This document shows, piece after piece, positions 850 to 58,590 of a stretch of DNA of 64,000 bases (the stretch's first letter is position 1; the number at the start of each line of letters is the position of its first letter). Location: contig CM037587.1 in NCBI GenBank assembly GCA_021018995.1, positions 12,158,866 to 12,222,865 on the forward strand, written 5' to 3'. The stretch is from Chloranthus sessilifolius. Lineage: Eukaryota > Streptophyta > Magnoliopsida > Chloranthales > Chloranthaceae. A program made the translations under genes and the position numbers. A model generated the notes under the pieces. It was not told the origin of the DNA and searched no databases. It saw only the letters and a program-made list of their open reading frames with translations.

Positions 850-3450
850 TGTAACGACTTAAAAATTCAGAACAAGAACTCAACTGCTTCGATAAGCATG
901 TCCGGCATAAAAATCGAGACAAATTAAAAATTTAAATTAATATTATTGAGAATAATATTAATCCACAGTTAAATGAAGTCATGTGTGACTTCTTGTGTAA
1001 GTCCAAGTTTTGTAAGACGTCGATGAGGCATGGTACGCCGGAAAAGTTGTGTATGTGCTCCACACCGGAGCTTTAGTTAGGAGAAAATGGAAATATCAAA
1101 GATATTTCATTTTCTTAGCTTATAAGAGAAGGAAGAAGGCTGGAACACCTATCTTTCATCTTCTTCTTCTTATTTTCATGGAAAGTTGTGGCTAGAGGAA
1201 TGGATTTTAGAATTTATCCGTTGTGAAACCAAGCTTGAGAATTCCTATATAATGAATTCTCGGTAGAGTGTGAAGGATCGATCTAAACTGTCCGTGTCTA
1301 GTCTGGGAATGTGTGCTATCGCTGCATGTTGAAGTGGAGCCACAAATTCGCTCATCCGAGTCGTGACGACGACAAATTTGGGATTTCGGATTCGAAACCC
1401 TCTCCGGATAGCATTTGCCGAGAAACAAAAGGGGACATTAAAGAGGTGAGTTTTTAGATTAAAATTGTGGAGGTTAAGACCTCATAAATGTGTAAAAGAA
1501 TATGTATGAGTGAACTGTTGGGATCATTAATGGTTAAGGATAAAAGTAGGTCAAGAACAATGATCGACATTGATGACAGAAATTGTCATCCTTGATCGAT
1601 CAAATTAGATCTTTGATCGATCAAGCCTGAGATTGATCGATCAAATCGTATATTTTAATTAATGAGAACAGTAGGTGTGTTTTTCTGGAAGTTAATGCCC
1701 GACGGGCATTGATCGATCAAATTGAGATTTGATCGATCAAAATTGAAGATTGGTCGATCAATTTGACCAATGATCGATCAATATGAGAGGTTGATTGATC
1801 ATAGTGAAGTGATCGATCAAGGGCGAGAATGATTGATCAATGAGAAAGTTTGATTAATCAATTTAGAAATTGATCGATCAAATTTTATAAAATGAGTGTG
1901 CAAACAGGAAGTAGGAAATTTGAGTCTGACTTGATTGATCGATCAATGGGGAAATTGATCGATCAAACAGGGATGTTGATCGATCAAATCCCCTCTATCA
2001 CATATGAGTTAAATGGGACATTGATCGATCAAATGAGGTATTTGATCGATCAAATTAGATGATTGATTGATCAAACAAGGACATTGATCGATCAATCACC
2101 CCTATTTATGCTATTTTGGTTTTATGGGTAGAACACTACTGGACACTATACCAGTTGATATCCTGACGTCTCTGACACTAAGTATACTATGTCTATGGTC
2201 TAGGATTAGATCGTGACGCATTAAAAGGCTTTGGATTTTCTTAGAAAGGTTTGATCTGAGGTAGGAGAAATTCAACCGAACTTACATTTATTCTTGATCT
2301 CATGGGTTCATAGCTTTTGTGTTCTGATACATGTTCAATTTTCGTTTTCCAAATCATGTCTAGCATTTGTATGAAAATTCCATCATATTTGATTCCTGTT
2401 ATCTGCTATCTGTCATATGATTCCTGTTATTATGATATGTATGCATGCGACTTCAAGTTTAATAATCTGACGAATCCCACCGACTCGGCGGTATATCAGT
2501 GACTGGCACACTCATGCATCTTCTTTGAAAATTCTTGGCACAATTGCACTCCTTAGATGAGGTATTGCTGCATTCCTAAAATTATTCATTGAACGATGAT
2601 GGTCGGGATTATCCATTGGCCCAAAATTGGCTACCACGTGCTATACTCACAGGATTTACTTAAGTATATTATTTTAAGTCATTAAATACTGTACGCATAG
2701 TATCCTGAAAACTCTAAAATTATGTCTGTTCTTACTAGTCCTGCATTCTAATTATTCTGCTTATCTGATCATCTGTTTGCATTTGTCCAATTCTGTTTAT
2801 ACTCTGCCTTGCTTATCTGTCTTAAGTTATATTCTGCACCCATGTTTTATAATTAAGATACAAATTTAACTGAATTTCTTCTATTGAGCTTAGATGGTTA
2901 GCTCACTCCTGACTTTGTGTCATAGGTTATGAGGCTCGGATTCCAGTCACCGAGAGCGACCCGGACTATCAGCTAGAGACAGAGGCTGAAGCTGAGGACG
3001 AGGAGACTGATATCCAGGCCGACGAGTTTTACCCTTAGCCTGGGTATATTAGTCTTGTATTTTTAGGTTTTTATACTATATTTTGGATTATTTGTGCGTC
3101 TGGTGGCCACCTTCTGTATATTTTTACTATAGATGTTATACATGTATTTATATACATTCTATAGGTACTACTATTAGGAACCATTGTTTTAGGTAATGGA
3201 TGTCCATCACCAGTGGTTCTTCTTGGCTCCTTTTTTAGGTTGTATATTCTTTTGATATATATATACATGTATTATTTTATTTCTTCTTTCTTTTGAAAAG
3301 CCTTATATGATGACTCGATCTGCCACTACTAGACCGTGTCTACTCTGATTTTTGCTAGACAAGCAGACACTCTTTGATTTGTCCTAGGGATCATCCCGAG
3401 CATGATCTTGATGGCACGGATTTCTGAGTATGAAAATTCGAGCTGTCACA
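850..3450 (+). mobile_element. 3' LTR of element Z (Tekay-like LTR family)
   Basis: This 2,601-bp LTR begins TGTAACGACTT and ends GAGCTGTCACA (TG...CA). Both ends and long interior stretches match the LTR of element A (11371-14142). Shared features include a TATAAG box about 271 bp from the start (1121-1126), an ACCGACTCGGCGG segment, a GATGGATGTCCATCACCAGTGG hairpin-like stretch and the terminal GCTGTCACA. It carries an array of TTGATCGATCAA palindromes. The partner 5' LTR is outside the window, so a TSD cannot be tested. It could also be a truncated element rather than a complete one. Confidence 0.85.
1592..2097. repeat. Array of TTGATCGATCAA palindromes in LTR Z
   Basis: At least a dozen exact or one-mismatch copies of the 12-bp palindrome TTGATCGATCAA are separated by short unrelated spacers. 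Degenerate copies show mainly C-to-T or G-to-A changes (TTGATTGATCAA, TTGATTAATCA). The same motif occupies the equivalent part of the element A LTR. The spacers are not conserved, so the palindrome itself is the repeated unit. Confidence 0.9.
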
Positions 3451-4073: not shown

Positions 4074-4336
4074 AAGTTAAGAGCACTTTATCCTCAAGAA
4101 AAACAAGTTAAAAGCATTTTAATTAAATACCATGAGATTAAACTGTTGAACGGTTTAAAATCAACAACATTTAAGTAAAAATGTACTTGCAATCCCAATT
4201 GGTACTAGCTTCATCAATAAAAACCCTAAAATAGGGTTTTTATTTTATGGCAATCTCTACCATATCTAGTTCTAACTCTAAGCAAGAAAGTCTCTCTCTC
4301 CCTCAAACTCTCTCTTGCTGAAAATTGATTTGAAAC

Positions 4337-6770
4337 TGTAACACCCTGAAAAATCCTGACCGTGAACAGTGCCTTGCAATGCGCGCACATCAGATGCCTG
4401 TGTGGTCCGCTAAAGGGTCGCCAAGCCGGGAAGGTCATAAGAGGAATAATGTAATGGAGTGGGTATGGATTAGGATATATGTATATATATATATATATAT
4501 ATATACAAGTATGTGAGTTGAGTGTTGGTGCCCAGCATCGGATTATAAGTGGGTTATAAAAGAAGTAAAGAGGAGTAAACCCTCTTAATTTCGGTGGTTA
4601 GGGCTATTGATGAGGAAAGAGGAAGGGAATTGAAGGAGAGGGTCATTTATGAGGGATTAGGAGTGATGTGCTTGAGGGAACTAAGGATACGCATTAATTT
4701 CGACATTGGATCGCCCACAATCCGGGGATCGAGCTGCCAAGCCCTAGCTTAGGGTGTGAAGCCTTGAATCATCGGATCGATTGATCAAAAAGGTACAATC
4801 TTGTAAGGTCAATTGATAATTAAAGTAGAGTATGTGATGGTAGTTTTAATTAGGTTAGTGGGGGAAGAAAATGGATAAAAAAGGAGGAGAAATTCCATAG
4901 AAATGGGTCTGTGAAAATAGATCTTAACCATTGAGAGGTTGGAGAAAATCGATCGGTCGAATTGTGAATTGACCGGTCGAATTTTGCTGTGTTAAGAGAA
5001 AATCACGAATTCGACCGGTCGACCTTGTTTCGATCGGTCAAGATAGTGAAACTGACTGGTCGAAATGTAATTGACCAGTTGATTTCCACAAAACAGGAGG
5101 TATAATTTTATAGTTTGGGGCCGACCGGTCCGATGGAAAATCGACCGGTCGATTTTAGATTTTTGACCAGTCGATTTGAGGAATCGACTAGTCGGGTTAG
5201 GTGCCATGTGAAGTGTAGGGTTTCACGAGCGAAACCGACTGGTCAAAAAGTTGATCAATCAGTCAATTTTGGGAAACCGACCGATCGACTTGGGATTCGA
5301 TCGGTCGATTTGTGACAGTTATGACTATCTTCTGTTATGAGTTTGAGACCTTGGGGGTTGCGAAGAACCTCCATAGTCTATGTAAATTATGGTGTTCTAA
5401 TCAAGATTAGGTGTATGCTAGGCGCGATTGGACCTAAGAAGGGTGAGAAGCAAGCTCGAACTACGTGAGCCGAAGAGCTTCGAGCAAGGTGAGGAAAACC
5501 CCTTTAAAAAGTATGGATTAACTTAGTAAGCATGTGTGTAGTGATAGATGATGCGTATGATTTTGAATTTCATTTTTGAACATACGATATACTCTGTGAA
5601 TGTGCACCTCTTGCTATGTGTGTACCCTTTTTAATTAAGTCATACTAAATATTGTGACAGATTTTGAGAAGCACATTCGTACTCAAATGGTTAACTAGTG
5701 TGTGTGCATAAAATTGTGATGGAAACTCGATTGTGGCATGGGACAATTTAAATTATGAAAGCTAGTATGTTTATTACACGTACATGGTGAATAACTATAT
5801 GTAGATTTTGCACGTCGATTTAAGGTTATGTGAATACCCGACTAATATGGTGGGATAACCATGACCGACGCTGTGGGATATCTGTGACCGGTACGGTGGG
5901 ATATCCATACAAATTGTGCTCCGGTTTGGTGGGATATCCGGTTTTCGGGTTCCAACAGTGGAACTATTTTGTCCGACAAGTCCCTCCGCTTTGAAAGCTT
6001 GTAACTTCAATAAAAAGGGTTCAATTGAACGACGGTGGTGGGTATTCCATCGGGCCTCGATGCTATACTGCTCGGGGATTATTTAAGTGAAGTGTTTTAA
6101 GTGGGTGTGTTGAGTAATATAAATGGGTATTTCTATTAAATATCACAAGTTACGTTTAAAAGTGCATTTTACGTTCATCTTCGCCGAATTTTCTTTGCTC
6201 ATGAATCATGCATTTTTCCTCCAGTAACTTACGCACTGTGCATTATCATGAAAGACATGCTTATAGAGAACCACACATATTAGTTTTGTTTTCTCATTGA
6301 GCTAGGATGTAGCTCACTCCTTCAAATATATGTCACAGGTACAGGTGAAGGTGCGGTTGCTAAGGACGTGGATAGATTTAATTCGGATTACGTCTTTCAT
6401 GAGGAGCACGAGCTTCCTCTCGAGGACTTCTTTTAGGTGTTTTGGGTCTAGTTGTTGATACTATTTGGCCTGGTATGTCAGGCCATCATTTTGAAGATAT
6501 TGTAATAAGTATAGTTTGGATATTTCACTTTTTGTGAACCATCCAGGGTGATTAGAAGATATCACCGATGGATCGGCTCAGTTCTTTGTTCCATATAGTA
6601 GATATGGGAGTTAGAACTGTCTTTTGAATTTGATAGCAAGTATTGGAAATGGTGTAAATCTAGGCTATGTATGAGTGTAACCACTGCATTTTCGCTGACG
6701 TGTTCGGGCACGACCTCTTAGATCGTGCCGACGGTCCGGGTTTCGGGGCTTCGAAATTCGTGCTGTTATA
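4337..6770 (+). mobile_element. Tekay-like solo LTR nested in the hAT element
   Basis: This 2,434-bp LTR starts TGTAACACCCTG and ends GTGCTGTTATA. A 5-bp TSD, GAAAC, flanks it at 4332-4336 and 6771-6775, and no internal region is present. The most likely origin is recombination between the two LTRs of a full insertion. The end TGTTATA differs from the TGTCACA of related LTRs by two C-to-T changes. A TATAAAAG box lies at 4555-4562. Both ends and a CACCGATGG segment match the LTR of element B in reverse orientation. Confidence 0.9.
4949..5311. repeat. Array of TCGACCGGTCGA-type palindromes in the solo LTR
   Basis: About a dozen copies of TCGACCGGTCGA and close variants (TCGATCGGTCGA, TTGACCGGTCGA, CCGACTGGTCGA) sit in the same relative position as the TTGATCGATCAA arrays of related LTRs. 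Successive copies at the left end are about 20-21 bp apart. Confidence 0.85.
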
Positions 6771-7056
6771 GAAACTTTTTGGCCTGCTATGGGTTGGGTT
6801 TGGGCTTAGTACATCGCAGCCCAGGTTAGGGCCGGGCTAAAAAAATTGGGAACCCGGCCCAGGTTTAACCCCAGCCCAGCCCTAAACAGGCCCACTGAGA
6901 GCCCTAGTAGAAGCTTCAATTCAGCATTGCCATCACCTCAAATGAATTAAGTTCAACATATATGTAAGTAATCATAGAGATAAAGAGAGGAATTGGAAGC
7001 ATATGCGTCTTCATGCAATAAAATAGTAAATTTATATATAATTGGGTTAGATGATA

Positions 7057-11370: not shown

Positions 11371-14142
11371 TGTAATAGCCTGAAAATTTTGAACTAGAAC
11401 CTGAATGTATCGATATATGTGCCCAACACGAAAATCTAGACAGATTTAAAAATTTATAATTAATATTATTAGAAATAATATTAGCCTATAGTTAGGTGAA
11501 TTCACGTGTGAATTATCGTTGTAATACGAGTCTTGAGAGACGTTGATGTGGCGTGATACGCCGTAGCAACCGTGTTCGCGCTTCACACCGAAGCCAAACT
11601 TGGAAGTAAACAGAAATATCAAGGATATTATATTCCTTGGCTTATAAGAGAAGGAAGATACCTAGAAAGATCTCCTCTCTTCTTCTTCCTCTTGTTCTTG
11701 AACTAGAATTCTATAGCTAGGTTGGGTTTTGAGTGAGTTCTTCGAGGAAACAGGGTTAGAGATACCGAGATCGTGCGTCAATCTGAGTTAGGGTATGGAG
11801 AGTTCAATTAGACAAGCTCACGTATAGTCTAAGTATGTGTGAGGCCTCTTCGTGATGAGCCGGAGTCGATAATCTCCTTGTCGGAGTCATACCGGTGATA
11901 AACTCCGAGAGCCGGATCTGAAACCTTCTCGGATTGCATTTACCAAGACCCCGAGAGGGCCCAAATAGAGGTGAGCCTTTGCATTTAAGTTGGGCAAGAT
12001 TAAAGCCCCTTATACTTTGTTTATGTGTGTGTAGAGATGGTTAGAAACCATTAATGAAGAAAATGTTTGAAAATAGGTCAAAGGAGTGACCTCCATCAAT
12101 GACAGAGAGCTGTCATTATTGATCGATCAATACTGAATTGATCGATCAATGTGAGGCATTGATCGATCAATAGGGGGCATTGATCGATCAATCCGTATAA
12201 GGCTTAAGTAGGAACAGTGGAGGCAATTGCTTGGAAGTTCTGTGCCCGAGGGGTATTGATCGATCAATTCACTAATTGATCGATCAATTCTGAGGGTTGA
12301 TCGATCACAGAGAGAGTGATCGATCAATGGCAAAGATTGATCGATCAATAAGAGTATTGATCGATCAATAAGGGTATTGATCGATCACTAGTGTGTATTG
12401 ATCGATCAATGAGGGCATTGATCAATCAATCTGTATAAAGTGACAATGAGAATAGGAAGAGAGAAATTTGAAAATATAGGTTGGTGATCAATCAATGAGG
12501 TCATTGATCGATCAATGAGACAGATTGATTGATCAACTGAGCTAGTGATCGATCAATTTTCCTCTGTAAATTGTGAAAGGTAAGGATCTATTGATCGATC
12601 AATTGAAGCATTGATCGATCAATGATAGGAGGTGATCGATCAATTGAAGCATTGATTGATCAATGATAGGAGGTGATCGATCAATAGAGGCTATTGATCG
12701 ATCAATTAACTCTGTTACCTGTCTGCATTAGGAGGAGATTGATCAATCAATGAGGTCATTGATCGATCAATGAGAAAAATTGATCAATCAATCAAGGTGT
12801 TGATCGATCAATCACCCCTGTTCTTGACCTGTCTGGAATTTATGAAATTTGAACTGCTTAACACAATGCCAGTTTATGATCTGACATACCTGACACTTAG
12901 TATGCTATGTTTATGGTCTAGGGTCGGATCATGATGCTTTAAAAAGCTTTGGATTTGCTTAGAAAAGGTCTGACCTGAGGTAGGGGAATTCAACTGAAAT
13001 TGCATTTATTCTTGATCTCATGGATTCCAAATGTTCAGCATGTGACTGCATAGTCTGATTTTACTTTCTAGTCATGTTTAGCATATGTGTGACAACTCTG
13101 TTATATATCTGACTCCTGCTATCTAACACCTGTCATCTGTCATCTGATTTCTGTTAAGTATAATATGTCTGCATGTGATTTGAGGTTTAACACTCTAACG
13201 AATCCCACCGACTCGGCGGTATATCCGTTTTTGGCACAATCGTGTATCTGCTTAGAAATCCTCGGCACAATTGCACTCCGTAGTTGAGGCATTGTTGCAT
13301 TCATGAAATTGTTCATGTGAACGACGATGGTTGAGATTACCCATTAGACCAAATCTGGCTACCACGCGTTATATTCACGGGAGTTATTTAAGTTTACTAT
13401 TCTAAGTCACTAAAAACTCATACAACACAATTTGAAAACTCTCATAAGATCTGCCTGCTTTGATAAATTTTGCATATCTGAAACATCTGTTTGCATCTAT
13501 TCAGTTCTATCCATATCTTCTACAACCATGTTTTACAATTAAGATACAATTTTAACTGAAATTTTTCAACTGAGCATAGATGGTTAGCTCACCCTATTTT
13601 CTACAACAATTATAGGTTCTGAGGGTAGAGCTCCCAGCACCGAGAGCAACCCTGACTACCAGCCTGATCCAGAGGCTGAGGTCGAGGATGAGGAGACTGA
13701 CATCCAGGCGGACGATTTTTATCCTTAGTCTGGGTACTAGTTGTCGTTTATTATAGGGATTTTATATGATATTCTAGATTATTGTGTGCCTGGTGGCCAC
13801 TTTCTGTATTTACTTTCTGTAGATGTTATTATATGTATTATTGTACATTCTATAGGAACCACTATCAGGAACCATTATTTGGGTGATGGATGTCCATCAC
13901 CAGTGGTTCTTCTTAGTTCTTTTTTGGGGATATATATTCTTTTGATATATATATATATACATGTACTTTTTACTGTTCTTTTTATTTGAAAAGCCTTATA
14001 CAATGTCTTGACCTACCACTGCTGGACAGTGTCTGCTTAGTTTCCACTATATGAGCAGACACTTCGTGATTTGTCTTGAGGATCATCCAGAGTATGATCC
14101 TGATGGCACAGATTTCTGAGCGTGAAAATTTGGGCTGTCACA
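11371..14142 (+). mobile_element. 5' LTR of element A
   Basis: This 2,772-bp LTR starts TGTAATAGCCTG and ends GGGCTGTCACA, directly before the PBS. It is collinear with the LTR at 850-3450. TATAAG at 11643-11648 is 272 bp from the start, almost the same offset as in LTR Z. The palindrome array lies about 475 bp downstream of that TATA box, so it would be in the transcribed leader if the box is used. Confidence 0.9.
12117..12817. repeat. Array of TTGATCGATCAA palindromes in LTR A
   Basis: More than 20 copies of TTGATCGATCAA or one-mismatch variants lie in 700 bp. Runs of neighbours are 19-21 bp apart from motif start to motif start (for example from about 12118 to 12192). Decayed copies are mostly TTGATTGATCAA or TTGATCAATCAA. 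Confidence 0.92.
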
Positions 14143-14143
14143 G

Positions 14144-14157
14144 TTAGTATCAGAGCC
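14144..14157 (+). promoter_or_regulatory. Primer-binding site of element A (initiator tRNA-Met type)
   Basis: TTAGTATCAGAGCC follows the LTR end after one base. It matches the common TGGTATCAGAGC primer site of plant gypsy elements with one G-to-A change. The same sequence occurs inverted at element B. Confidence 0.8.
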
Positions 14158-14247
14158 TAAGCTTTAGGTTGAACAGCGGGTTCATGTTGGATTGTTTTCA
14201 CAATCTAGTACTGATCAGTGTTATTATTTTCACAATGACAGACCAGT

Positions 14248-15524
14248 ATGGGCCCTAGGTTCAGAGGCGGACGCAGCGGAGGTAGGGAAGGTTATAGAGA
14301 GGTTCCTCAGAGAGAGATCCCTGATGTTGCTGGTACATCACGGGGATTAGAGTTCCTCTCACACACTAATGCTGTTCTAGTGGGACCGAGAGGAAGCAGA
14401 AGAGGCAATGAGGAGAGAATGGAGCAGGTGTTGGCTACCAATGTCGCTCAGCAAATAGCTGCTCTGACTCAGTAGGCAGCTAGACCATCTCATCAGCCAA
14501 GCGGGTTCACGAAGTTTAGGAGAATGAGACCTCCTAACTTCTCGGGTCAGGCAGATCCCATAGAGGCCGAGGGATGGATAGAAGAGATGGAGAAACTTTT
14601 CGAAGTTCTTCAATGTACAGATGTGGTGAAAGTGCGTTGGGCCACTTTCAAATTAGATGGTGATGCCGGACCTTGGTGGAAGTCGGTGTCACAGAATCGA
14701 GCGAGAGAGTTTCCTCACACTCCTTGGACATGGGAGGAGTTTACGGAAGTATTTTACAACAAGTACTTTCCGAAAATAGTGAGGCATCAGTGGGAGGTGA
14801 AGTTTATAGAGTTAAAGCAGGGTACGATGTCACTGAGAGAGTACGGTGCTAAGTTTGATCGACTGGCTAGGTTTGCACCCCAGCATGTAGCCACTGAGCT
14901 GATGAGAGCACGTAAATTTCAGCTTGGATTGAGGCAGAACTTGTAGAAGGATTTCACCATGTGGAAAATGGAGATGTATGAGAGTGTCATGTCCAAGGCT
15001 CTCATCGCAGAAGAAGAGAACCAGAAGCAGTTTGCTTGGAGGGACAAGCAAAGCAGAGAGAGGTCTTTTCAGGGGCAATCTCAGGACCCTGAGCAAAATA
15101 AGAGGGCTAGATTGTCCAGACCTCCGAGGTACCCTACACACCCGGCCGACGATTTCTTCAGGGCCGAGTTCGTACCAGAGAGCAGCAGTACCTACATTTT
15201 CCAGACCATTCCGACCGTCTGGTTCTTCTGGTAGCAGAGCATCAGTAGGGCAGGGATCTTCAAGGGTCTCTTCATTCACTCCAACTGTGTTATGTGCAAA
15301 GTGTGGGAAGCCACACAAGATAGAGGATTGTCAGAGGGATACAGGAGCGTGCTTCAGGTGTGGCAAGATGGGCCACTTGGTTAGGAACTGCCCAGAGGAG
15401 AGCAAAGATGATAAAGAGCGGTCCGAATCAGTGTCTACACAGAGATCTTCTTGACCTGTGGTTCAAGGTCGAGCTTATGTTGTTACCGCGACCGTTGCTC
15501 TGACATCGAATGATGTCATACAAG
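14248..15524 (+). pseudogene. gag of element A (capsid and two zinc knuckles)
   Basis: From ATG 14248, an Arg/Gly-rich N-terminus leads into the retrotransposon gag core (FRRMRPPNFSGQ, DGDAGPWWKSVSQ, YFPKIVRHQWEVKFIELKQG). In-frame TAG codons at 14473 and 14944 both fit former CAG Gln codons. A frameshift lies near 15150-15190. The nucleocapsid has CAKCGKPHKIEDC followed by an intact CX2CX4HX4C knuckle, CFRCGKMGHLVRNC. A TGA near 15452 precedes VVQGRAYVVT and the final codons DVIQ, where the intron-like interval begins. Gag forms the virus-like particle. Confidence 0.9.
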
Positions 15525-15675
15525 GTATGATTAAATTTTAAGTGAGATTATTTATCGAGTAGGATGGACTGGAAATTAGAAAGGTAGAGTTATTTTGATT
15601 AAATGTTTATGATGATAATACACATTACACATACACATCTTAAGCACTTGATCTAATTATGTGACTAAATTATAG
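15525..15675 (+). other. Candidate intron between gag and protease of element A
   Basis: The interval starts CAAG|GTATGATT and ends AATTATAG|GTGAGC, so it is GT-AG, 151 nt and AT-rich, with branch-point-like TGACTAAAT near the 3' end. Splicing joins DVIQ to G-ELKVYQ in frame. If retained, translation runs QGMIKF and stops. Elements B and G have an interval at the identical position. Confidence 0.75.
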
Positions 15676-17525
15676 GTGAGCTGAAAGTATATCAAAGTTG
15701 TGATATTTGTTTTCATCGAGCACGAGTTTTGCTAGACCCAGGCTCTACGCACTCATTTGTTAGGCCTCAATTTATGAAATAATTGAGCGTCACTCCTGAG
15801 CAATTAGAGTTCATATTGACGGTGTCTTTTCCTACGGGAAGTGCAGTGAATGCACTCATAGTGTATAAATTGGTGATTGTGTTGGTAGATGATCACGAGA
15901 CGTTGGCAGATTTAATTTTATTAGATATGAAAGGGTTTGACATTATTCTAGGAATGGACTGGCTATTCGCTTACCATGCGAGCGTCGATTGCCTTCGAAA
16001 GATTGTAGTTTTTCGCCCTCCAAAGGAGCGATCATTCATATTCTTTGGGGTAAAGTCTAAGGTAGCTCCGTTGATATCAGCTATTCAAGCCCAAAGGATG
16101 ATGAAGAGTGGATGCAGTGGCTATGTGGCCTTTCTGTAAGAGCAATGGGAGGAGACGAATATGATATCCGATATTCACGTTGCGTGCGAATACCCCAATG
16201 TATTTCTTGAGGATTTACCAGGATTACCACCAGCTCGGGAGATTGAGTTTGAAATAAATCTGGTTCCGAGCACTGAACCAGTATCTAAGGCTCCTTATTG
16301 GATGACTTCAGCAGAATTACAAGAGTTAAAGGAGCAACTGCAAGAACTGCTTGACAAAGGATTCATTCGACCCAGTGTGTCTCTTTGGAGAGCACTAGTA
16401 TTGTTTGTCAGAAAGAAGGATGGTTCAATACGTCTATGCATTGACTATCGGCAGTTAAACAAGTTGACGATTAAGAATCGTTACCCGCTCTCTAGGATCG
16501 ATGATCTGTTTGATTAGTTACAAGGAGCGAGGTTCTTTACCAAGATTGACTTGAGGTCAGGTTATCATCAGCTACGAGTCAAAGTAGAAGATGTCGAGAA
16601 GACGGTGTTCAGAACCATATATGGACACTATGAATTCTTAGTTATGCCATTTGGATTGACGAACGCACCTGCGTCTTTTATGAACCTGATGAACCGAGTG
16701 TTTAAACCACACTTGGATAAGTCCGTGGTTATCTTTGTATATGACATCCTTGTCTATTCCAAGACAAAGGAGGAACATGAAGGATATCTACACGTGGCTT
16801 TATAGACCCTCAGAGATCACAAATTATATGTGAAACTCAGTAAGTGTGAGTTTTGGCTAGGCCAAGTTAGTTTCTTGGGCCACATCGTCTCTGCTAAGGG
16901 TATAACAGTCGACTCAACAATGATCGAGGCAGTCATGAATTGGGAACAACCGAGAACGGTAACAGAGGTCCGTAGTTTTCTTGGGTTAGCAGGATACTAC
17001 CGACGATTTATAGAGGGGTTCTCCAAGCTATCAAGTCCGCTTACTCAACTCACAAAGAAGAATGCTAAGTTTGATTGGGCTGATCAGTGTGATAAGAGTT
17101 TCCAAGAACTGAAAACGCGTCTGACTATAGCACCGGTATTAGCTATACCTTCTGGCAGAGGGGGTTTCACTATCTACAGTGACGCATCTTATGGTGGTTT
17201 GGGTTGTGTCCTCAACCAACATAAAAAGGTTATCGTGTACGGTTCTAGACAACTCAAGGAACACTAGAAGAATTACCCTACGCATGATTTGGAATTGGCA
17301 GTGGTGATCTTTGCTTTAAAGATCTGGAGGCACTACTTATATGATGAGACATTTGATATCTTCACCGACCACAAAAGTCTCAAGTATCTGTTTACCCAGA
17401 AGGACTTGAATATGCGACAACACAGATGGATGGAGTTCTTAAAGGATTACGATTGTTCCATCCAGTATCACCCTGGGAAGGCTATTGTTGTGACAGATGC
17501 TTTGAGCAGGAAGTCTTCAGCTTAG
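15676..17525 (+). pseudogene. Protease, reverse transcriptase and RNase H of element A
   Basis: Protease: VLLDPGSTHSF holds the catalytic Asp, and FDIILGMDWL follows. [34 protein letters not shown] and [14 protein letters not shown] are present. The active-site box reads [12 protein letters not shown], so the first Asp of the usual DD pair is Tyr (codon 16740-16742) and polymerase activity is lost. RNase [41 protein letters not shown] and ending DALSRKSS. Stops: TAA 15780, TAG 16515, TAG 16803, TAG 17265 and TAG 17523. Most fit C-to-T changes of Gln codons. Confidence 0.9.
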
Positions 17526-19151
17526 TTGTCACATCTTATCACCAGAGTACAGCGGTGGCATCTACTTGAGGACCTAGCCTTGTGCGATACACTGATTGAT
17601 GTTAAAGGTTCAGGGGCATTGATGGCTACTATTGTGATACAGCCCATATTGTTTGATAACGTGCGTAAGCTCCAAATGATTGATGATGAGCTTACAGTCA
17701 TTAGAAAGGATGTGATCAACGAGATCAGACCTGATTTCTCTATCAAGGATGATGGTACTTTGCTATTCAGAGATCAGATGTGCATACCTGATAATAAGGA
17801 TCTGAAGGATACAATTTTGGAGGAAGCACACAAGTCTACGTATGCTATACATCCCGGGAGTACCAAGATGTACCAAGATCTCAAGCAAAGTTTTTGGTGG
17901 AGAGGACTGAAGAAATATGTTGCGAATTATGTCTCTCGGGGTTTGGTCTGCTAGTAGGTGAAAGTAGACCATCAGAATCCAGCAGGGTTATTACAACCAT
18001 TACCAGTGCCAGAGTGGAAATGGGAAGCCAATTCTATGGATTTTATTTTGTGATTGCCAATCACATTGAGAAAGAACAATGCCATCTAGGTCATTGTAGA
18101 TCGACTGACGAAGTCTAAACATTTTCTGCCGTACCGGACTATGTATACAGCCAATAAGCTTGTAGAGCTGTACATGAAGGAGAAAGTTCGATTACATGGC
18201 ATACCAGTCAGCATTGTGTGTGATAGAGATCCGCTCTATACGTCGTAATTCTGGCAACAATTTTAAGAAGGCATGGGTTCTAAACTGGAGTTTAGCTCAG
18301 TGTTTCATCCTCAGACAGATGGGCAGACTGAGAGAGTGAACTAGATTATAGAGGATATGTTGCGTGCATGTATGTTGGACTTTCATGGTTCACGCGATCA
18401 GCATTTACCTCTGATCAAGTTCACTTACAATAACAGCTATCAGTCAAGTATTGGGATGGCGCCTTATGAAGCCTTGTATGGACGACGATGCAGATCTCCT
18501 TTGAATTGGAAAGAGGTAGGTGAGAAGCTTGTTTTGGGACCTGATGTCGTGGACAGTGCAACCGAGACAGTTCGGTTGATCCGTGAGAGGTTACGGGTTG
18601 CTCAAAGTCGCCAAAAGAGCTATGCCGATCTCCATCGGATGCACGTCGAGTTTCAGGTATACTCAAATACATTTGCGAAAGTTACTATTTATAGTTAAAA
18701 TGATTAGCTATAGAATTAACCACTATTTTCAAGTTGGAGACAAGGTCTTTGTGAAGATCTCGCCAACCAAGGGCATTATGTGCTTCGAAAAGCATGGAAA
18801 GTTGAGTCCTCGGTATATCGGCCCCTTTGAGGTACTCGGACGGGTTGGCGAAGTCACTTATCGGATTGCTTTGCCACCGCAGTTGGTGAGCATGCAAAAC
18901 ATTTTTCATGTTTCCATGCAACGACGATACGTGTGCTACCCGACTCATGTCTTGGATTTCCAGCCGATTGTGTTGCAAGAGGACCTGACGATGATTAAGG
19001 AACTAATCACGATTTTGGATCATAGAGATCAAGTTTTGTAGACCAAGTTGATTCCACTGGTACTCGTAAAGTGGAGAAATCATTCAGCTTCCGAAGCTAC
19101 TTGGGAGTGCGTAACCGAAATCCGTGAACAGTATCCACACTTGTTCACCTG
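17526..19151 (+). pseudogene. Integrase and chromodomain-like tail of element A
   Basis: The zinc-binding part has H...H in HKSTYAIHPG, but the Cys pair reads VSRGLVC and has lost one Cys. The catalytic triad can still be followed through stops: Asp in NSMDF, Asp in VCDRDPLYTS and Glu in IIEDMLRACM. Stops include TAG TAG near 17954 and several TAA/TAG codons between 18050 and 18345. The C-terminal part (KLSPRYIGPFEVLGRVG, IFHVSM, then WRNHSASEATWE and REQYPHLFT) is the chromovirus-type tail. It is interrupted by a 76-bp insertion at 18657-18732. Confidence 0.88.
18657..18732 (+). other. 76-bp insertion or failed intron in integrase A
   Basis: FQ and VGDKVFVK, contiguous in related polyproteins, are separated by AT-rich sequence beginning GTATAC and ending TTTTCAA. 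The edges repeat TTTCAGGT and TTTCAAGT. A GT-AG splice (to 18733) would leave the frame shifted by one. Element B has no insertion here. Confidence 0.55.
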
Positions 19152-19180
19152 ACATGAGAGGTAAATTTTTATTTTCGCTT

Positions 19181-19419
19181 AAAGATTCATCATCATGATT
19201 GTGTTTCTTATGTGTAAGCAAGCATCATTGACTCGAGAAATCTGCTATTGGTCATTGGCTTTGTGAAGCATGTCTTCATTAGCCATTGCGTGACATAATG
19301 AATATTAGCCATGCGCTCGTCATCGCATCACGACACGGTTTTGATTCATAAACTTTCCATTGAATAGGTTGGCCAAATGTCCAACGTTTGATTACATAAG
19401 TGGTTTTGATTTTTACAAT
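19181..19419. other. Junction between elements A and B
   Basis: About 240 bp without a gene, LTR, PPT or PBS lie between the 3' ends of the two inverted elements. I cannot place the exact breakpoint. Confidence 0.5.
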
Positions 19420-19447
19420 ACATGCTTGCGACGATACAATTTAGCTC

Positions 19448-20980
19448 TCAACTTGCCACAAACAAGTCTGGGTATTGCTCTTTTGTGCCAGCCTCTCTTT
19501 CCCACGTAGCTTCTTCAGTTGGATGATTCTTCCATCTAATAAGCACTAATGGAATCACCTTTGTGTGCAACACTTGTTCCTTTCGATCCAATATCTCCGT
19601 CGGTTCCTCTATCATGCTCATGTCTTCGTGCATCTCTGCCCAAAACATGAGTAGGGCCATTAATATACTTCCTGAGCATAGATACGTGAAACACATTGTG
19701 CACCTGGTCGAATAATAGTGGTAATCCAATGCGGTAAGCAACTTCCCCAACTCGACCCAAAACCTCAAATGGTCCAAGATACCAGGGACTCAACTTCCCT
19801 CGCTTCCCAAATCTCATAATGCCTTTCATAGGTGATACCTTGACAAACACGTGTTCACGCACCTTATAGTCTACACTGGTCCACTTGATATCGACGTAGC
19901 TTTTCTGCCTACTCTGAGCCGCTTTGAGTTTGTTCTTATCATACGAACATAGGTGGCATTATTTTCAAGTATCTCGGGTCCCAAAACAAATTTCTCCCTA
20001 GTTTCTTCCCAATTGATGGGCGATCTACATCACCTTCCATAAAGAGCTTCATACTGTGTCATGCCAATGCTCGCTTGAAAACTATTGTTGTAGGCAAATT
20101 TAATCAACGGTAGGTGTTGATCCCATGATCCTTACAGTTCTAGCATACACGCTCTGAGCATGTCTTCTATGACATGATTCACTCGCTCTATTTGCCCATC
20201 AGTTTGTAGATGGAAAGTTGAACTAAAGTCCAGTCGCGTTTCCATTCCTTCTTGAAATTTCTTCTAAAACTTTGATGAATATAACGGGTCACGATCGGAA
20301 ACGATACTACTTGAAATCCCGTGTTGGTGCACGATCTCTTTCATATACACTCCGCAAGTCTTTTCGCCGTGTATATCGTGTTGTAAGGCAAGAAGTGTGC
20401 TGACTTGGTCAATCGGTCTACAACTACCCAAATGGCATTATATCTCTTTGCAGTACGCGGTAATCCCACGATGAAGTCCATAGAGATCGATTCTCACTTC
20501 CACTCTAGTATAGGCAGAGGCTGCAATAACCACGCAGGGTGTCTTCACCTGCTGACATGTCAAACATCGTGACACGTACTTAGACACATTTTGCTTCAAA
20601 CCTCTCCACTAGAAATTCAAATCTTGATATATTTGCGTGCTACCAGGGTGAATTGCGTAATTTGACTTGTGAGCCTCATCAAGGATAGTTCACCGCATAT
20701 CGACATTGTCGGGAATGCAAAGACGGCCCTTGAACAATAATGAACCATCTTCTTTCACTGAGAATTTAGGTTTGATGCCTTCAATCACATCTTGATGAAT
20801 CTTGATTAACTCCGGGTCTTTCATCTGTAGCTCGTGGATATGCTCAAATATGGCTGGTCACACTGATATGTTAGCCAAGAAAGCTCCTGTAGCTTGTACC
20901 TCAATATTTGCATCATACAGTGAGAGATCTTCAAACAATCTCCATCGGTGCATACCCAAAATCAAACTAGCCAATTGAGC
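19448..20980 (-). pseudogene. Integrase and chromodomain-like tail of element B
   Basis: Conceptual reading of 20690-20520 gives HKSNYAIHPG and YVSRCLTCQQVK, an intact HHCC zinc finger. SMDFIVGLPRT holds the first catalytic Asp and is followed by VVVDRLTKSAHFLP. An indel lies near the second Asp. The C-terminal part reads KLSPWYLGPFEVLGRVGEVA, NVFHVSMLRKY, a frame change, then TKVIPLVLIRWKNHPTEEAT and the stop. No insertion is present at the position where A has one. Confidence 0.85.
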
Positions 20981-22300
20981 TTAACCCTTCCAACTCAAGG
21001 CATCGGCTACTACATTAGCCTTGCCTGGATGATACTGTATGAAATAGTCGTAGTCCTTGAGGAACTCCATCCATCTGCGTTGCCTCATATTCAGCTCTTT
21101 CTGTGTAAATAGGTATCTGAGGCTCTTTTGGTCGGTGAAAATCTCAAACGTCTCACTATACAAATAATGTCGCTAAATCTTCAACGCAAATATGATCGTT
21201 GCTAGTTCCAGGTCATGCATCGGATAGCTCTTTTCAAGCTCTTTCAACTGTCTTGACCGGTAAGCTATCACCTTTTTGTGTTGGTTGAGCACGCAACCCA
21301 AACCATTATACGAAGCATCACTGTAAACCACGAACCCTCCACTACCTGAAGGAATCGTTAGTACTGGAGTTGAAGTGAGCCTCTTCTTGAGTTCTTGAAA
21401 ACTCTTCTCGCACGCTTCACTCCATTCAAACCTTGCATCCTTCCGTGTAAGTCTCGTGAGAGGTCTTGATATTTTTGAAAACCCGTTGATGAAACACCGA
21501 TAATAGGCTACTAGTCCAAGGAAACTATGGATGTCGATCACGATTTTCGATTGCTCCTAATTTACCACTGCTTCGATCATAGCTGGATCTACCGTGACAC
21601 CATGCTTTGAGACTACATGTCTCAAAAAGCTAACTTCCTCCAACCAAAACTTGCACTTACTGAGTTTGGCGTACAGTTGGTGTTCACACAAAGTTTGTAG
21701 AGCGACTCTCAAGTGTTCTTCATGTTCTGCTTTTGATTTAGAGTATATTAGGATATCATCAACGAGCACGACGACGCAGGAGTCCAGGTGTGGTTTAAAC
21801 ACCCGATTCATCAAATCCATAAATGATGTCAGAGCATTCGTCAACCTAAACGGCATCACTAAGAACTCATAGTGTCCATACCGTATCCTGAATGTAGTTT
21901 TTTAGATGCCCTCTGCCTTGACTCTCAACTGATGGTATCCAGACCTCAGATCGATCTTAGAAAAATACCTCGCTTCTTATAGCTGATCGAATAGGTCAAC
22001 TATCCTAGGCAAAGGATATCGATTCTTTTTGGTGAGTTTGTTCAACTGGCGATAGTCACTGCACAGTCGCATTGACCAATCCTTCTTTACAAACAAGACC
22101 GGTGCTCCCCATGGAGACACGCTTGATCTTACAAATCCTTTGTCCATGAGTTCTTATAACTGCTCTTTCAACTCCTTCAACTCAGCAGGAGTTATCCTAT
22201 ATGGTGCTTTCGAAACAGGCTCCATTCCCGGTGCTAAGTCGATGGCGAACTCCACCTCTCTCTGGAGGTAATCCTAGTAATTCCTCCAGAAATATATCTT
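20981..22300 (-). pseudogene. Reverse transcriptase and RNase H of element B
   Basis: RT motifs read [46 protein letters not shown] and [20 protein letters not shown]. The active site [13 protein letters not shown] keeps both Asp residues, unlike A. RNase H includes [52 protein letters not shown] and ends [10 protein letters not shown]. Stops break the frame at several points between 22300 and 21170. Confidence 0.88.
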
Positions 22301-22307
22301 CAAACTC

Positions 22308-22828
22308 TCACACCACTTTTATCTTGGAGATAATATTCTTCTCTTCCTTATCCTCCTTCAAGAATGCCAAATAACCACTGCACCCTTTTCTAATCAAGTA
22401 CTCAGCCCTGACTGCAGAGATAAGTGGCATATGCGTCGATCTCTCTCCTCGAAATCGAAACGATCTCCTTGTGTTAAGTCTGAAGATGATGATCTTGTTC
22501 TTGCAATCTACGGTCGCACAATATTGTGACAACCAATCCATGCCAAAGATCACATCGAATTCTTGCATGTCCAATAATATTAGTTGTGCGTCCAGTTCAT
22601 AGACGTCCCCATCATCAATACCCACTACTACCGACTTGTAAACCAATTCTGTGTCGACTAACTCTCCGGTCGGAATAGACACTGATAAAACAAAGTTCAA
22701 CATCTCCGGAACAATCTGCATTCTTTTTACAAACCTCGGAGTAACAAAGGAGTGGGTAGACCCTGGGTCTATCAACACTCTTGCTTCACATGTCACATAA
22801 CATCCCTTCTCGTACACTCGTAACGTAC
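22308..22828 (-). CDS. Aspartic protease region of element B
   Basis: Starting directly after the intron-like interval, the frame reads GTLRVYEKGCYVTCEA, then VLIDPGSTHSFVTPRF with the catalytic Asp, and FDVIFGMDWLSQYCATVDC. The upstream MSYIYTCVI of the same open frame lies inside the putative intron and is unlikely to be native. The frame stays open to a stop after IISKIKVV, one of the longer undamaged pieces of B. Confidence 0.85.
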
Positions 22829-22971
22829 CTATAACACACGTATATATATATGACATTTTTTATTTAGAAAATTTAACATACAAAAAGGAGTCTACATGCT
22901 TTTCTAACGAATGCACCTTCTCTATCTAAAATTAAAAGGAAATAAAATTCTTTATTTAAAAGGAATCTCAC
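22829..22971 (-). other. Candidate intron between gag and protease of element B
   Basis: On the minus strand the interval starts CCAAG|GTGAGATTCC and ends GTGTTATAG|GTACG, 143 nt and AT-rich. Splicing joins DIIQ to G-TLRVY in frame. Retention gives QGEIPFK and a stop. Position and phase equal those in A and G. Confidence 0.75.
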
Positions 22972-24355
22972 CTTGGATAATGTCATGCACATTACCTGCT
23001 TCTTGGGCGATGACTGCATAGGCTCTTCCTTGTACTACCGGCTTTCTTGCTTGTATCGGTCGTGGCATTGAAGCAGAAGCCGTCTTATCCTTGTTCACTT
23101 CAGGGCAATCTTTAATCATGTGGCCACCTTGACACATTTATAGCAACCTCGTGTCCCTTGCCTGCATTTTGCCGTTTTGTGAAACTTGCCACACTTGGCA
23201 TAAGTCTCCCTAGGTGTGAAAGAAGTAGCTTGTGAGAAATCCTGTGTAACTGCTGCTCCAGTGGTGGCAGCAGGGCTCTCATATTGTATCTACCTCCCCG
23301 ATGGTCTGCTGTGCCGGTCTCCCATACCCTGCTTAGAACGGTTGCCTCTTATTAGGTGCTATGAATTTTGGCTTTTTGTTCACCGGCTCATAGTTCCCTG
23401 TTCTACTCTGATCTACACTCCCTCTTCCCTACTGTTCCCTTTGGCGGTATCGATTATTATTTTCTTCCTCAACAACTAGAGCTTTACTCATGACCTCTCC
23501 ATAGGTCTTTAGCTAAAACGGTGCCACTCTTCCTCTAACGCCCAGTCTCAAGCCTTGTTAAAACCTTTTTGCTCTCATCACATCAGTAATTACATAATCG
23601 GGAGCGAAGCGAGCAAGCCTCATAAACTCCACTCCATACTCCCTTACTGTCATTCGTCCTTGCAAGAGTTGCAAAAACTGTATCTCCATCTAATTCCTCA
23701 CTACCTCCGAGAAATACTATTTGTTGAACTCCTCCACAAACTCATCCTACGTCCAGGGCAATCCTGGGGTCTCCTGAGCCCTAGTCCTAGAAATGGACTT
23801 CCACCAAGGTCCAGCCTCCCCATCTAGCATGTAAGCTGCCCAACGGACGCTCTCATCTTTCGTGCACGTAAGCACGCTAAAATTTTTTTCCATCTCACTC
23901 AGCCAATTCTCAGCAGCCATCGGCTTCGCTTGCCCTGAAAAACTAAGAGGTCGCATCCTCCTAAACTCCATAAATGCATAAGCCACTGGCAGTGTAGGAC
24001 CTACTGGAGGCGTAGGTAATTGATGATGATCACTGGCAGTGTGAGCTTCCAAGGATGCTGCTTGTTGAACCATGGCGGGAGCCATGGCGGTCGCCATGGT
24101 TTCCATGGTGTGCATCATCCTCTGATGCTCTTCTCTCTCCTCATTTCTTTCTCTGATTCTCTCTTGTTCCCTCTGATCTCGATCCTGGCAATCTCGATCC
24201 TGGTTCTCTACCTGATCTCAGTTCTCTGGACCACTACCCTCGGGAACTTCTCTATGTCCCATAGGTACTCTGTTCGTAGACGAAATGAAATCATCTATGC
24301 TACGCAAATTTCTATTATGACCGCCCTTGGGTCAGCCTCTTGCCCTAGAAGACAT
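22972..24355 (-). pseudogene. gag of element B
   Basis: ATG at 24355 begins MSSRAR. The gag core reads RRMRPLSFSGQ, MLDGEAGPWWKSISRTRAQE and further in-frame pieces with stops. The nucleocapsid contains CAKCGKFHKTAKC and a second knuckle split by a frameshift (GCYKC, then GGHMIKDCP). It ends VVQGRAYAVIAQEAGNVHDI before the intron-like interval. Confidence 0.85.
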
Positions 24356-24444
24356 CACGGTCTGCACGTTAAATCAAAGTTTCGTTAGCAGAAGTCCCTA
24401 TATTTTGACAAAATTAATGATTGTCAGAATTTCTAAATGAAAAG

Positions 24445-24459
24445 GCTCTGATACTAACT
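24445..24459 (-). promoter_or_regulatory. Primer-binding site of element B (initiator tRNA-Met type)
   Basis: On the minus strand GTTAGTATCAGAGCC follows the LTR end CTGTCACA, as in element A. Confidence 0.8.
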
Positions 24460-26776
24460 GTGACAGTCCAGATTTTAACACCCCGAAACCTGTGCCATCA
24501 GCACGGCCCTCCAAGCCGTGCCCATGAAGTCCATATGGAATATTGGTATAACCAAGCAATAACTACTCAAATAGAACATGTAAACTGAACATCGTGAATT
24601 AAAGATATGCTAATCTAAAGCAAAATCTCAAAAGACAGTTCTACTTCCATACCAATGCATGAACAAAAGAACCGACTTGAACCATCGGTGATAAGTAGAT
24701 CACCCTAGATGGTTTGCCCAAAAGAATTATATCATTTAATTACATCTTTTCTAAAATAAGGCTTGACATACCAAGCCATACAGGATGCCCTCAAAACTCA
24801 CTCTCAAAGTGCACACAGGTCCTCTAGAAGAAGTCCTCAGGAGGAGGCTCCAACTCTTCCCCGGGTACGTAATCCGAATGCCCCGGATCTACGTCCCCCG
24901 AAGCCTCAATAGTCGCAAGCACAGGACCTACGACGTATAGTCTAAAGGGTGAGCTACATCCTAGCTCAATAGGGAAACAACAATTGAACATATAAGTGAA
25001 GCTCTCACATATATTCTATGACAATTTAAAAGCATGATTTTTCAAATGGAATAACTGAGAACAATTTAAATAATTGAAAAGATGTACTGAACGCAACTGT
25101 TACTTTACACATGTGTATTTATTCTCAACTTGTTGATATTAGACAATGATTTGGCCTAATCACTTAAATCTTAACTTAAATATTTTCCAACTTACTATAG
25201 AGTCGGACACCCGATGGAATACCCTCCATCATCGTCTAAATAGAGAATTTTCATATCTGTTTCTTTCTTGAATACTACCGAGGTCCCTTTCTCATAGGCG
25301 ACGGGGTTTCTAGTCTCACACACACATCCCTGGGATGTCCAAACTGGTGTATGGATTGGCCACCGTACCGGTCACGAATATCCTGTCGAATCAGTCATGG
25401 GTATCCCGCCACGTCGGTGGGGTATTTTGTTTAAACCTCAAATATCAAAGTGCACTACATATAGTTATTCACCGTGTGATTGTGCTAATTTTAGTATATT
25501 AGGCCTTATCAACTTTTCTTTTACTTTACTGACAGATTTCCTCTGCATCCCTGGGATGCCACTGGCTCAACGCATCACATAGATGCTCATTATCACAATT
25601 TCACGTCCCCTGGGGACCTTACTAGTTCACTAGTATTAACACACACACACGCACTCTTAAAATCATGTTTTGATGCATAAATATTCACTTGTATCTTACT
25701 ACATACATGCTTTTGAAAATTAAAATACATGTTCAAGGTGTTCCCTACCTCACGCGTTCGAATCACTAAGCACCAAGGTCTACACGACTCAACATGCTTG
25801 TATTTACTCGTACCACCTATGGTACACCATAGCATAAGTAAGGCATCAATAAGGATGCATTAAAGAAGGTATAAGACTCTCCCTGAACCTCAAAGTTCAA
25901 TTCAAAAGTCAATAAAAACTGTCAAAATTGATTAATCGATCTCCCAAAATCGATTAATCGAAATCTCATATCGATTAATTGAATCTAAATCGATTAATCG
26001 AATTACCAAAATCGATTAATCGATTAATTGGTTTTCTCAAGTTATGATTTTCCAGTCACTGGAGGTGCTCAGATGATTATTCGATTTTAAATCGATTAAT
26101 CGAATTCAAAAATCGATTGATCAATTTTAAAATCGATCAATCGGTTTCGGACCATTCTACCCAGATAACTTCCAGACCAAAATAGATTAATCAATTTTCC
26201 ATGGTCAGAAACTCAGCCCTTTTTCGGGCATTTCTTCCAAATCTCTTTCTTTCCATTTCCCTTAATTTCCATTCTTTATTTCTTTATTTAAACCTCATTT
26301 AATTATATAACGTGTTTAAAACAATCTCAACATACTCACCCTTAGATCAACCCTTGGTTGATTCAATGGTTTGGCATGAAGGCTAGGGTCCCAGCTTTTG
26401 CTTCAATGATTCCTAACGCATCGAATTCGACATTAATTGCTCAATCCCGTCTTCGATTTGGAATGTGCATTAACTTCCTTCTTTACTCTCTCTCTCTCTC
26501 TCCTCTTAACTCCTCTTACCAACCAAAACAAGAGAAATAACTTCTCTTTAGGTTATTAAGTCCTTATAACTCCTCTTGCTTCGGTGTTAGGCATATACGC
26601 CTATGAACCGTATATGTTGTCTCTAAACTAGCTCTAACACCGCGCACATGTGTTTGTTCACCCCATACTTAATTTATTCATAGTCATCGTGTTGACCTTC
26701 ACTTGGTCAAACCTATGACGGGTCGGGCACACATCTCGAGGTCACGATTAGACGCTCAATTTTTAGAGATGTTACA
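24460..26776 (-). mobile_element. 5' LTR of element B
   Basis: This 2,317-bp LTR begins TGTAACATCTCTAAAAATTG and ends GGACTGTCACA on the minus strand. It is homologous in order and sequence to the solo LTR at 4337-6770, including the GGTTTCGGGG segment near the 3' end and a CACCGATGG segment. A TATAAGG box lies near 26570. The palindrome array is TCGATTAATCGA instead of TCGACCGGTCGA. Confidence 0.9.
25926..26198. repeat. Array of TCGATTAATCGA palindromes in LTR B
   Basis: About nine copies of TCGATTAATCGA and variants (TCGATTAATTGA, TCGATTGATCAA) lie at roughly 19-22 bp intervals on the left side. They occupy the same place in the LTR, 600-850 bp from the start, as the TCGACCGGTCGA array of the solo LTR. 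Confidence 0.88.
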
Positions 26777-33471: not shown

Positions 33472-33484
33472 CACCACCAAACCT
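33472..33484 (-). promoter_or_regulatory. Polypurine tract of element C
   Basis: The minus strand reads AGGTTTGGTGGTG directly before the 3' LTR. Element D has AGGTTTGGGGGTG at the same place. The stretch 33485-34660 beyond it is 3' untranslated DNA with a T23 run near 34360. Confidence 0.75.
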
Positions 33485-34797
33485 AAGCTTTGCTAGTCCT
33501 TGAGCAAAGGAGAAAGTAAAAACAATCAGTAAAAATGAAACATGCCACTTTTGTAGGGAGCACTGATACATTTAGCATATACATCAAGCCTTTTAAACCC
33601 CTAGGTGATCCCTAGTGGAGAAGTGAAGTATCCTGAGGGTTTACAGTGAAGATACCCACAAACTTCTCCAATAAACATAGTTAATTTCAGTGCAAAAGTT
33701 AAAGCATCATTCTAGCAAAAGTAAAGCTTATTCCACAACCTGCTCATGCAATTTTTTGGAGGATTTTCAACAGTGAAACAACATTTTAATATTGAGAGTA
33801 AGTTGTCATTCTTTCACCATCACTCAACTCTTGTTAAGACATTGTGTGAAGATTAATGCAAAGCTCACCTATTATTTTGATAATTATGTTTAGATAATAC
33901 CCCCAGCAGCCTTTATTTGTGACCCAAGTCTCACCAGGGCTTACACTCAAAAATAACCATAGAAGGGGGCTTCACCTCTCAAAACTCAAGAGCAGTTAGT
34001 GCCCTCAAATAGGACTGTAAGCATGAGCATAGGCATTACTCCTAATTTCTAAAATCTTCTAGCTCCCTCCACCATAGATTATACAATTCCTTATCTCTAC
34101 ATGACAGCTCAATTAATCCCAAATCAGTAAGGTCTTTTATTGGGTTGTAATGTGGCTTATGGGTGAAATTGGTAAAAGAATAAAGGGGTAAAAAGGATTC
34201 AAATTGAGAAATCAGTAAGGTAAGGAGGTGGTCTAGACAACACCTTCTTCATTTCAACACATCTTCCTCTTCTTTGATATTTTCAAACTTGAAGTGATCT
34301 AGTCTTCTTTTTGATTTTCCAATGAAGTAACTTCTCTTTCATATATTTGTTGTGTTTTTCTTTTTTTTTTTTTTTTTTTTTTGTATGCTTTTTCTTTGAA
34401 TATTTTCTCATCATTGGACTAGAATGCCATAGCTTCACATTGATACACAGCTGCCATCAGATTTGCTTTCTTCTCCTTCAACCAAATTTCCAACCTTGCT
34501 CCTCTAGCCTCTCTTCTTTTTTTTTCTGATTTCTCAAATTGAGGGTGAACTGAAACAGGTCAAGGGGTTTTGGGTTCAAATTTTTTGGTTTTTAGCAAAG
34601 AAAAATTGAGATTTTTTAAGGCTCAAATGGTGTGTATCAATGGCAATTCAAAGGGTAGGATCTTGGACTGGAGGAACAACCAGTAGTGGGGTAGGGACAA
34701 GTGAAGTAGGAGCAGGTTGAGGGGAAGAAGTTGTAGAGGGTTGGGTGTGGGGAGGATTGGTAGGAGGGGCTGAAGCAAGGGGGCCTGGCTGATACGG

Positions 34798-40932: not shown

Positions 40933-40938
40933 AAAATT

Positions 40939-50546: not shown

Positions 50547-50560
50547 CACCCCCAAACCTA

Positions 50561-58584: not shown

Positions 58585-58590
58585 AAAACT

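Follow-up and report, generated by a model that had tools for sequence, protein, structure and literature searches.

Palindromic arrays in Ty3/gypsy LTRs of Chloranthus sessilifolius are constrained in motif and switch word between close relatives

The closest described counterparts of the arrays considered here are the RM boxes of Sireviruses, which are Ty1/copia elements. As presented in the relevant passages of Bousios et al. (2010; PMC2829016), these are palindromic, high-copy words of the LTR, mostly different in each element and set among divergent flanks; they are called Sirevirus-specific, lie upstream of the TATA box and have a CGG-CCG core in all but one case, and 13 of the 13 words in the table passage contain CpG. 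Sirevirus LTR palindromes also figure as small-RNA hotspots, as relayed in an excerpt of PMC5311732. The anti-silencing system VANDAL/VANC of Arabidopsis involves short, element-specific motifs that are clustered in non-coding DNA and differ between related families (Hosaka et al. 2017, main passages of PMC5735166). Retand elements carry family-specific tandem repeat arrays between pol and the 3' LTR (excerpt of PMC11963269), and an excerpt of PMC6911290 deals with palindromes at insertion sites.

The window, by which we mean the whole 64,000-nt stretch analyzed here, belongs to a 2.17-Gb genome in 32 contigs and holds several gypsy elements. Like the Sirevirus boxes as excerpted, its LTRs carry a repeated palindromic word, and CpG occurs in all words on both sides; unlike them, these elements are Ty3/gypsy, the cores are other ones, and the arrays of the Tekay-like LTRs lie downstream of a TATA-like site, TTATAA. 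The CGG-CCG core is absent from TTGATCGATCAA, TCGATTAATCGA and TCGCTCGAGCGA, and TCGACCGGTCGA has CCGG, not the CGG...CCG order. Reportedly, Bousios and colleagues in 2016 found the LTR palindromes of maize Copia Sireviruses to be hotspots of small RNA; the LTRs here have a palindrome-rich region likewise, but that case is a maize Copia one. The extra boxes that Sireviruses have upstream of the env gene (PMC2829016, same passages) are comparable to the interior boxes of two Athila-like elements described below, and, unlike those passages, the present analysis measures constraint on core versus spacer and switching between close relatives. A family-specific clustered motif that changes between relatives is shared with VANDAL/VANC, which differs in being a DNA transposon with an encoded binder (the string "palindrom" is absent from the text of PMC5735166); here gag and pol pieces were examined. 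Retand is alike in having family-specific repeats in gypsy elements and unlike in that these are tandem and outside the LTR (PMC11963269, as excerpted).

By analogy, the arrays appear to resemble Sirevirus boxes and VANDAL/VANC in part and need not belong to either. New here is a palindromic LTR array in Ty3/gypsy elements with measured constraint and motif switching; palindromic LTR boxes and element-specific arrays were already known. No report of such arrays in gypsy LTRs was found among the matches listed, partly as excerpts, for palindromes with Tekay, chromovirus or gypsy LTRs (including PMC2820488 and PMC6317226), a scope mostly without subscription papers, and prior description is possible; a search of the literature for the exact words listed none judged relevant. 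With these arrays, the concerted evolution of a motif in a gypsy control region is plain to see and open to testing. They could reveal by what means sister families escape activation and silencing or have them in common, and the known Sirevirus boxes may exemplify something more general about plant LTRs.

Arrays in the window and across the genome

Four LTRs of the Tekay-like kind lie in the window, where a sequence-only reading had placed family-specific arrays of TTGATCGATCAA, TCGACCGGTCGA and TCGATTAATCGA; all three were found at the places claimed. LTR A (11371-14142, + strand), the 5' LTR of a Tekay-like (chromovirus) element, has TG...CA ends and a PBS-like sequence next to it, and its array (12119-12811) comprises 27 copies of TTGATCGATCAA when 2 mismatches are allowed; these fall into blocks of 4, 9, 4, 6 and 4, with a spacing of 19-21 bp and linker distances of 45-76 bp. 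LTR Z (850-3450, +), which is preceded by a PPT-like AAGGGGAGA and aligns with LTR A, carries 19 copies of TTGATCGATCAA at 1592-2095; its second block has 9 copies, matching LTR A, and the series of distances is nearly identical. The solo LTR (4337-6770, +), which has a 5-bp target-site duplication, GAAAC, at 4332-4336 and 6771-6775, holds a decayed TCGACCGGTCGA array at 4949-5308 (13 copies at up to 3 mismatches, 2 of them exact). LTR B (24459-26776, -), the 5' LTR of a second Tekay-like element, has TCGATTAATCGA at 25928-26144, with 9 copies at up to 3 mismatches, 4 exact. LTRs Z and solo are of the same broad kind as A and B, and across these arrays copies stand 18-22 bp apart in blocks of up to 9, with linkers of roughly 40-80 bp.

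The name Tekay-like is given by resemblance, the domains having been found as pieces: Pfam matches cover gag, protease, RT, RNase H, integrase SH3 pieces and a weak chromodomain. Element A matches Retrotrans_gag and Ty3_capsid; element B matches SH3_Tf2-1 and, in a pol piece (19448-19786), Chromo at E 4.8e-5, just under the Pfam cut-off, and the gag piece of B gave no family match in Pfam. A pattern scan of viral_contigs for relatives returned 0 matches, and of 11 pattern matches to the RT piece in other organisms none was confirmed. The interiors of A (+) and B (-) occupy 14143-24458 and abut by their tails at around 19.1-19.5 kb. A 3' LTR is missing at this junction, which looks like the product of a rearrangement.

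Two further elements, E1 (31226-43189, -) and E2 (48446-60686, -), are presumably Athila-like, judging by the resemblance of their primer-binding sites. Each has two LTRs and an interior, and gag, protease and RT domains are the ones found for this pair. Each bears, as the sequence-only reading had noted, palindromes of another kind: boxes resembling AACCTSTCGASAGGTT occur in either LTR and again inside the element (at about 37827-38231 in E1 and 53084-53441 in E2). In both 5' LTRs the boxes lie upstream of a TATA-like site, TATAAAA. In E2 the interior array comes after the RT region. The interior boxes of E1 are followed by a 337-aa ORF (35374-36387, -), much as boxes lie near env in Sireviruses, and no scored relative of it was found among 7,022 candidates. 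Three of the four Athila-like LTRs contain CTTCTAGAAG (at 32296, 49524 and 59663), which we take to be a heat-shock-element-like palindrome; the fourth has CCTCTAGAAG at 42017.

Within the window, when AT-type runs are excluded, palindromic 12-mers cluster in at least 3 copies only in the four Tekay-like LTRs and at one place in E2, and the best word in 192 shuffled 1-kb tiles reached 2 copies. The excess extends to the whole genome, in which TTGATCGATCAA, TCGACCGGTCGA and TCGATTAATCGA occur exactly 65,226, 3,173 and 241,617 times. Reversing each word yields a control palindrome of equal base composition; these controls occur 317, 33 and 55 times, corresponding to excesses of 206-fold, 96-fold and 4,393-fold. 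With about 310,000 exact copies of these three words in 2.17 Gb, any binding protein would meet a very large pool of sites.

In a sample of twenty 10-kb stretches, taken at even steps along the first 95 Mb of contig C1, 6 contained a non-AT palindrome arrayed in 7 or more copies: TCGATCGATCGA in L011, ACGGACGTCCGT in L018, TCGATTAATCGA together with TTGATCGATCAA in L019, TCGATTAATCGA in L020 and L028, and TCGCTCGAGCGA in L026. The L018 array adjoins SIRE-like Copia sequence, so named by resemblance only, and 4 copies of other words occur in L012, L014 and a second stretch of L020. Among clusters of at least 6 copies of any word, the consensus was fully self-complementary in 7 of 25 dispersed clusters of the sample (one of the 7 being AT-only) and in 4 of 8 in the window, versus 12 of 5,000 random draws; the flank cut put the two L020 clusters on the tandem side. 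The other 18 sample clusters are not fully palindromic. Non-palindromic word clusters with divergent flanks, such as TAATTAGACTTT, were seen in L024 (7000-8000), L027 (2000-3000) and L023 (3000-5000).

Constraint on the motif and switching between relatives

The arrays are real, genome-wide and strongly constrained, and the constraint falls on the motif and not on the spacers. In an older comparison of the paired Z and A arrays, motifs are 92% identical and spacers 46%, which is the chance level. Among 12 TT-type arrays (those with TTGATCGATCAA), in sums that enter pairs in both directions and are therefore not independent, the core outside CpG differs at 106 of 14,556 sites (0.7%) and the spacers at 2,219 of 11,858 (18.7%), so that spacers of paired arrays are about 25 times more different than cores; core CpG differs at 3.0%, linkers at 17.0% and flanks at 11.9%. 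The GT type (8 arrays) shows 2.1% in the core versus 14.0% in the spacers, and six B-type loci 4.8% in the core, 10.4% at core CpG and 20.5% in the spacers. Cores with more than 2 differences are included in these sums and number 5, 6 and 10 for TT, GT and B, against 1,800, 727 and 156 kept. Two proposals made from the sequence, that motifs change in concert by family and that they are under selection, are supported. Ordinary tandem repeats were rejected on these spacer comparisons, 12592-12706 excepted.

Replacement of the array word between relatives is likewise real. A gag search for relatives of A gave 39,411 candidate places; scoring covered 150 of them, none below 90% identity, and the LTR stretches of 25 were taken; all 25 have an array, 17 of TTGATCGATCAA and 8 of the GT type (L031, L051, L053, L054, L055, L057, L058 and L059), the latter carrying GTGATCGATCAC, each with 2 to 7 exact copies of GGTGATCGATCACC. 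A few loci are mixed: L057 (GT) retains one TTGATCGATCAA, and L044 and L049 (TT) each hold one GTGATCGATCAC. L031 (GT) and L033 (TT) are almost equally close to L029 in leader and gag (89.4% and 89.0% identity), and only L031 has switched; LTR segments are 62-71% identical to those of L029 in L031 and 69-82% in L033.

For B, 150 places were scored by gag, at 78-86% identity apart from B itself, and 12 were taken. Seven have words of the TCGCTCGAGCGA type, whose steps are for the most part 22 and 33 bp (L063 without an exact copy), four have TCGATTAATCGA at 19-23 bp steps, and L062 has no array. When four of the seven TCGCTCGAGCGA-type loci were compared with two of the four TCGATTAATCGA loci over 1 kb of LTR, hardly any DNA matched: L060 has no match, and L061, L063 and L064 share a 37-bp segment that by position covers GAGGTAGGG, with one further 29-bp match in L061. 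Word and surroundings have thus both changed in B-like loci that still hold an array, and it is the position of the array that is kept.

The half-sites of these words are TTGATC, GTGATC, TCGATT, TCGACC and TCGCTC, together with TCGATC in L011. All six share G at position 3 and have a pyrimidine at each of positions 2, 5 and 6, so that the words resemble stages in the evolution of a single half-site and not separate inventions. Transitions at half-site positions 2, 5 and 6 are the only differences among the three Tekay-like window words; these are versions of a common half-site pattern and not unrelated palindromes. The conserved LTR backbone on which they were said to be exchanged stands in part: Z and A are clearly homologous to solo and B in the part 3' of the array (z 10-15), and the rest is not clearly so.

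Possible function of the arrays

We give slightly better than even chances to the reading that each array offers binding sites to a dimeric, sequence-specific protein from which the element benefits, either through higher LTR transcription or through protection from silencing. Each palindrome would present two half-sites to the putative dimer, and copies about two helical turns apart would let bound dimers face the same way. The half-site would drift as the protein, or the choice of protein, changes, and the whole array would follow because only copies matching the current protein would help. The arrays, their spacing, the constraint on the motif and its coordinated change between related elements are observed; the existence of the protein, its dimerization and any influence on expression are inferred. 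The constraint, the switching of words in arrays that stay in place, the genome-wide excess and the occurrence of the same kind of array beside SIRE-like Copia sequence and in Athila-like LTRs count for the dimer-site reading. Counting against it, the Tekay-like array follows the TATA-like site, whereas enhancers usually lie upstream; the genome sample also has clustered words that are not palindromic; and at a word switch the surrounding LTR has diverged too.

Symmetry and spacing bear on this reading. The outer bases of the two half-sites vary independently: G.C pairing of outer bases was expected 6.9 times and observed 2 times in TT arrays, and expected 62.9 and observed 63 times in GT arrays. 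C>T and G>A changes are balanced in TT arrays (17 vs 16), T>C and A>G number 22 and 9 in B arrays, and compensating deviations in neighboring copies are rare (2 of 46, 2 of 35 and 3 of 47). Without outer-base covariation, a bias of the kind that tolerated G-U pairs would leave, or compensation, base pairing is not favored as the selected trait, and self-complementarity as such, on which selection had been supposed to act, is not supported; the mutation patterns favor half-sites read by a dimeric protein, one of the options raised earlier, over self-pairing. The sites are not fully symmetric, as one-sided variants show. Of 122 GT-type copies, 32 have GATCT where the right half should read GATCA. 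Of 414 TT-type copies, 119 have G as the left outer base, yet no more than 24 have C as the right one. Of 78 copies of the TCGCTCGAGCGA type, 23 have C at position 1 and 6 have G at position 12. Mean spacing is 20.0-20.8 bp for six words (distances up to 26 bp; three means rest on 8 or fewer distances), and TCGCTCGAGCGA-type copies are 22 bp apart in 39 of 71 distances and 32-34 bp apart in 16. Among the families covered, steps of about two helical turns are compatible with dimers that all bind the same side of the DNA; spacing is shared by descent among related arrays. Helical phasing beyond this basic unit was dropped: three Athila-like arrays gave R 0.58 at 10.5 (n=42), with P 0.14 once distances up to 24 bp were removed, and the linkers of the Tekay-like arrays are not in helical phase.

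The palindromes might instead act as RNA, with hairpins in the LTR transcript feeding or tuning small-RNA silencing, as proposed for maize Sireviruses, or with the leader RNA dimerizing. We regard this as unlikely and retain it for the strong fold of the 701-nt A array, which is far better than in 20 shuffles (z -13.7); the position of the Tekay-like array downstream of the TATA-like site and the small-RNA hotspots of Sirevirus palindromes (PMC5311732, excerpt) point the same way. Any set of inverted repeats would fold, however, and a single invariant 10-bp core is not needed for that; the uncoupled outer pairs, rarely compensating neighbors and missing G-U bias speak against it, and an element that drew silencing onto itself would be selected against. 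Distinctly doubtful is a role modeled on an expression-raising intron of Arabidopsis, in which 11 copies of TTNGATYTG within transcribed sequence raise expression; such introns are inactive more than about 1 kb downstream of the start (PMC6760150, relevant passage). This role rests on splice-site-like borders of the array, with a donor-like AG/GTGAG on the 5' side (in A, Z, B and aligned relatives of A) and TGAGGTAGG on the 3' side (in A, Z, B, L060, L066 and L067). These borders and the start were read by eye, TTNGATYTG is not palindromic, and the spacing of two turns is left unexplained, as is the fact that Athila-like LTRs and Sireviruses have their boxes on the upstream side of the TATA-like site or TATA box.

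Neutral turnover, in which slippage and conversion spread a functionless, palindrome-prone word, could draw on one 41-bp tandem duplication, weak similarity among spacers inside arrays and copy numbers that change between relatives; conversion would homogenize spacers too, though, and with TT spacers so much more different than cores we hold it very improbable. Much the same low standing goes to motif change mainly as escape from a sequence-specific host silencer. Change specific to a family in nearly all copies would suit it, as would CpG in 8 of 8 array words versus 28 of 109 other palindromic 12-mers of the sample (the eight words are not independent), but an attacked element should lose its array, and this one is kept under strong constraint, which evasion alone, as once put forward, would leave unexplained. 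From CpG in all array words one might guess at methylation-sensitive binding. A broader form of the dimer-site reading, to which we assign a rather low probability, is family-private addressing in several plant LTR lineages: an element-encoded or recruited dimeric factor and its cognate palindrome array would co-evolve and insulate sister families within one nucleus, as VANC does for VANDAL. Were it true, CpG in each word would make the address methylation-sensitive.

Other features of the Tekay-like LTRs

Near the end of the LTR lies an acidic, coding-like stretch (2926-3038 and 13616-13728, +) that matches parts of solo and B. It follows an acceptor-like AG/GT, ends in DFYP or EDFF plus a stop, and has the same phase in all four window LTRs; the DFYP end, sought in ten LTRs, was matched only in Z, A, L008 and L029. 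An open frame spanning the putative LTR exons was rejected, exon 1 having no common frame and the frame being broken in L029. After the acidic stretch comes an inverted repeat around GGTGAT...ATCACC (3160-3225 and 13870-13915), present in A, solo and B and with one change in Z, possibly near the 3' end of the RNA. A 28-bp segment, ACGAATCCCACCGACTCGGCGGTATATC, is identical in Z (2470-2497) and A (13198-13225), with looser matches in solo and B.
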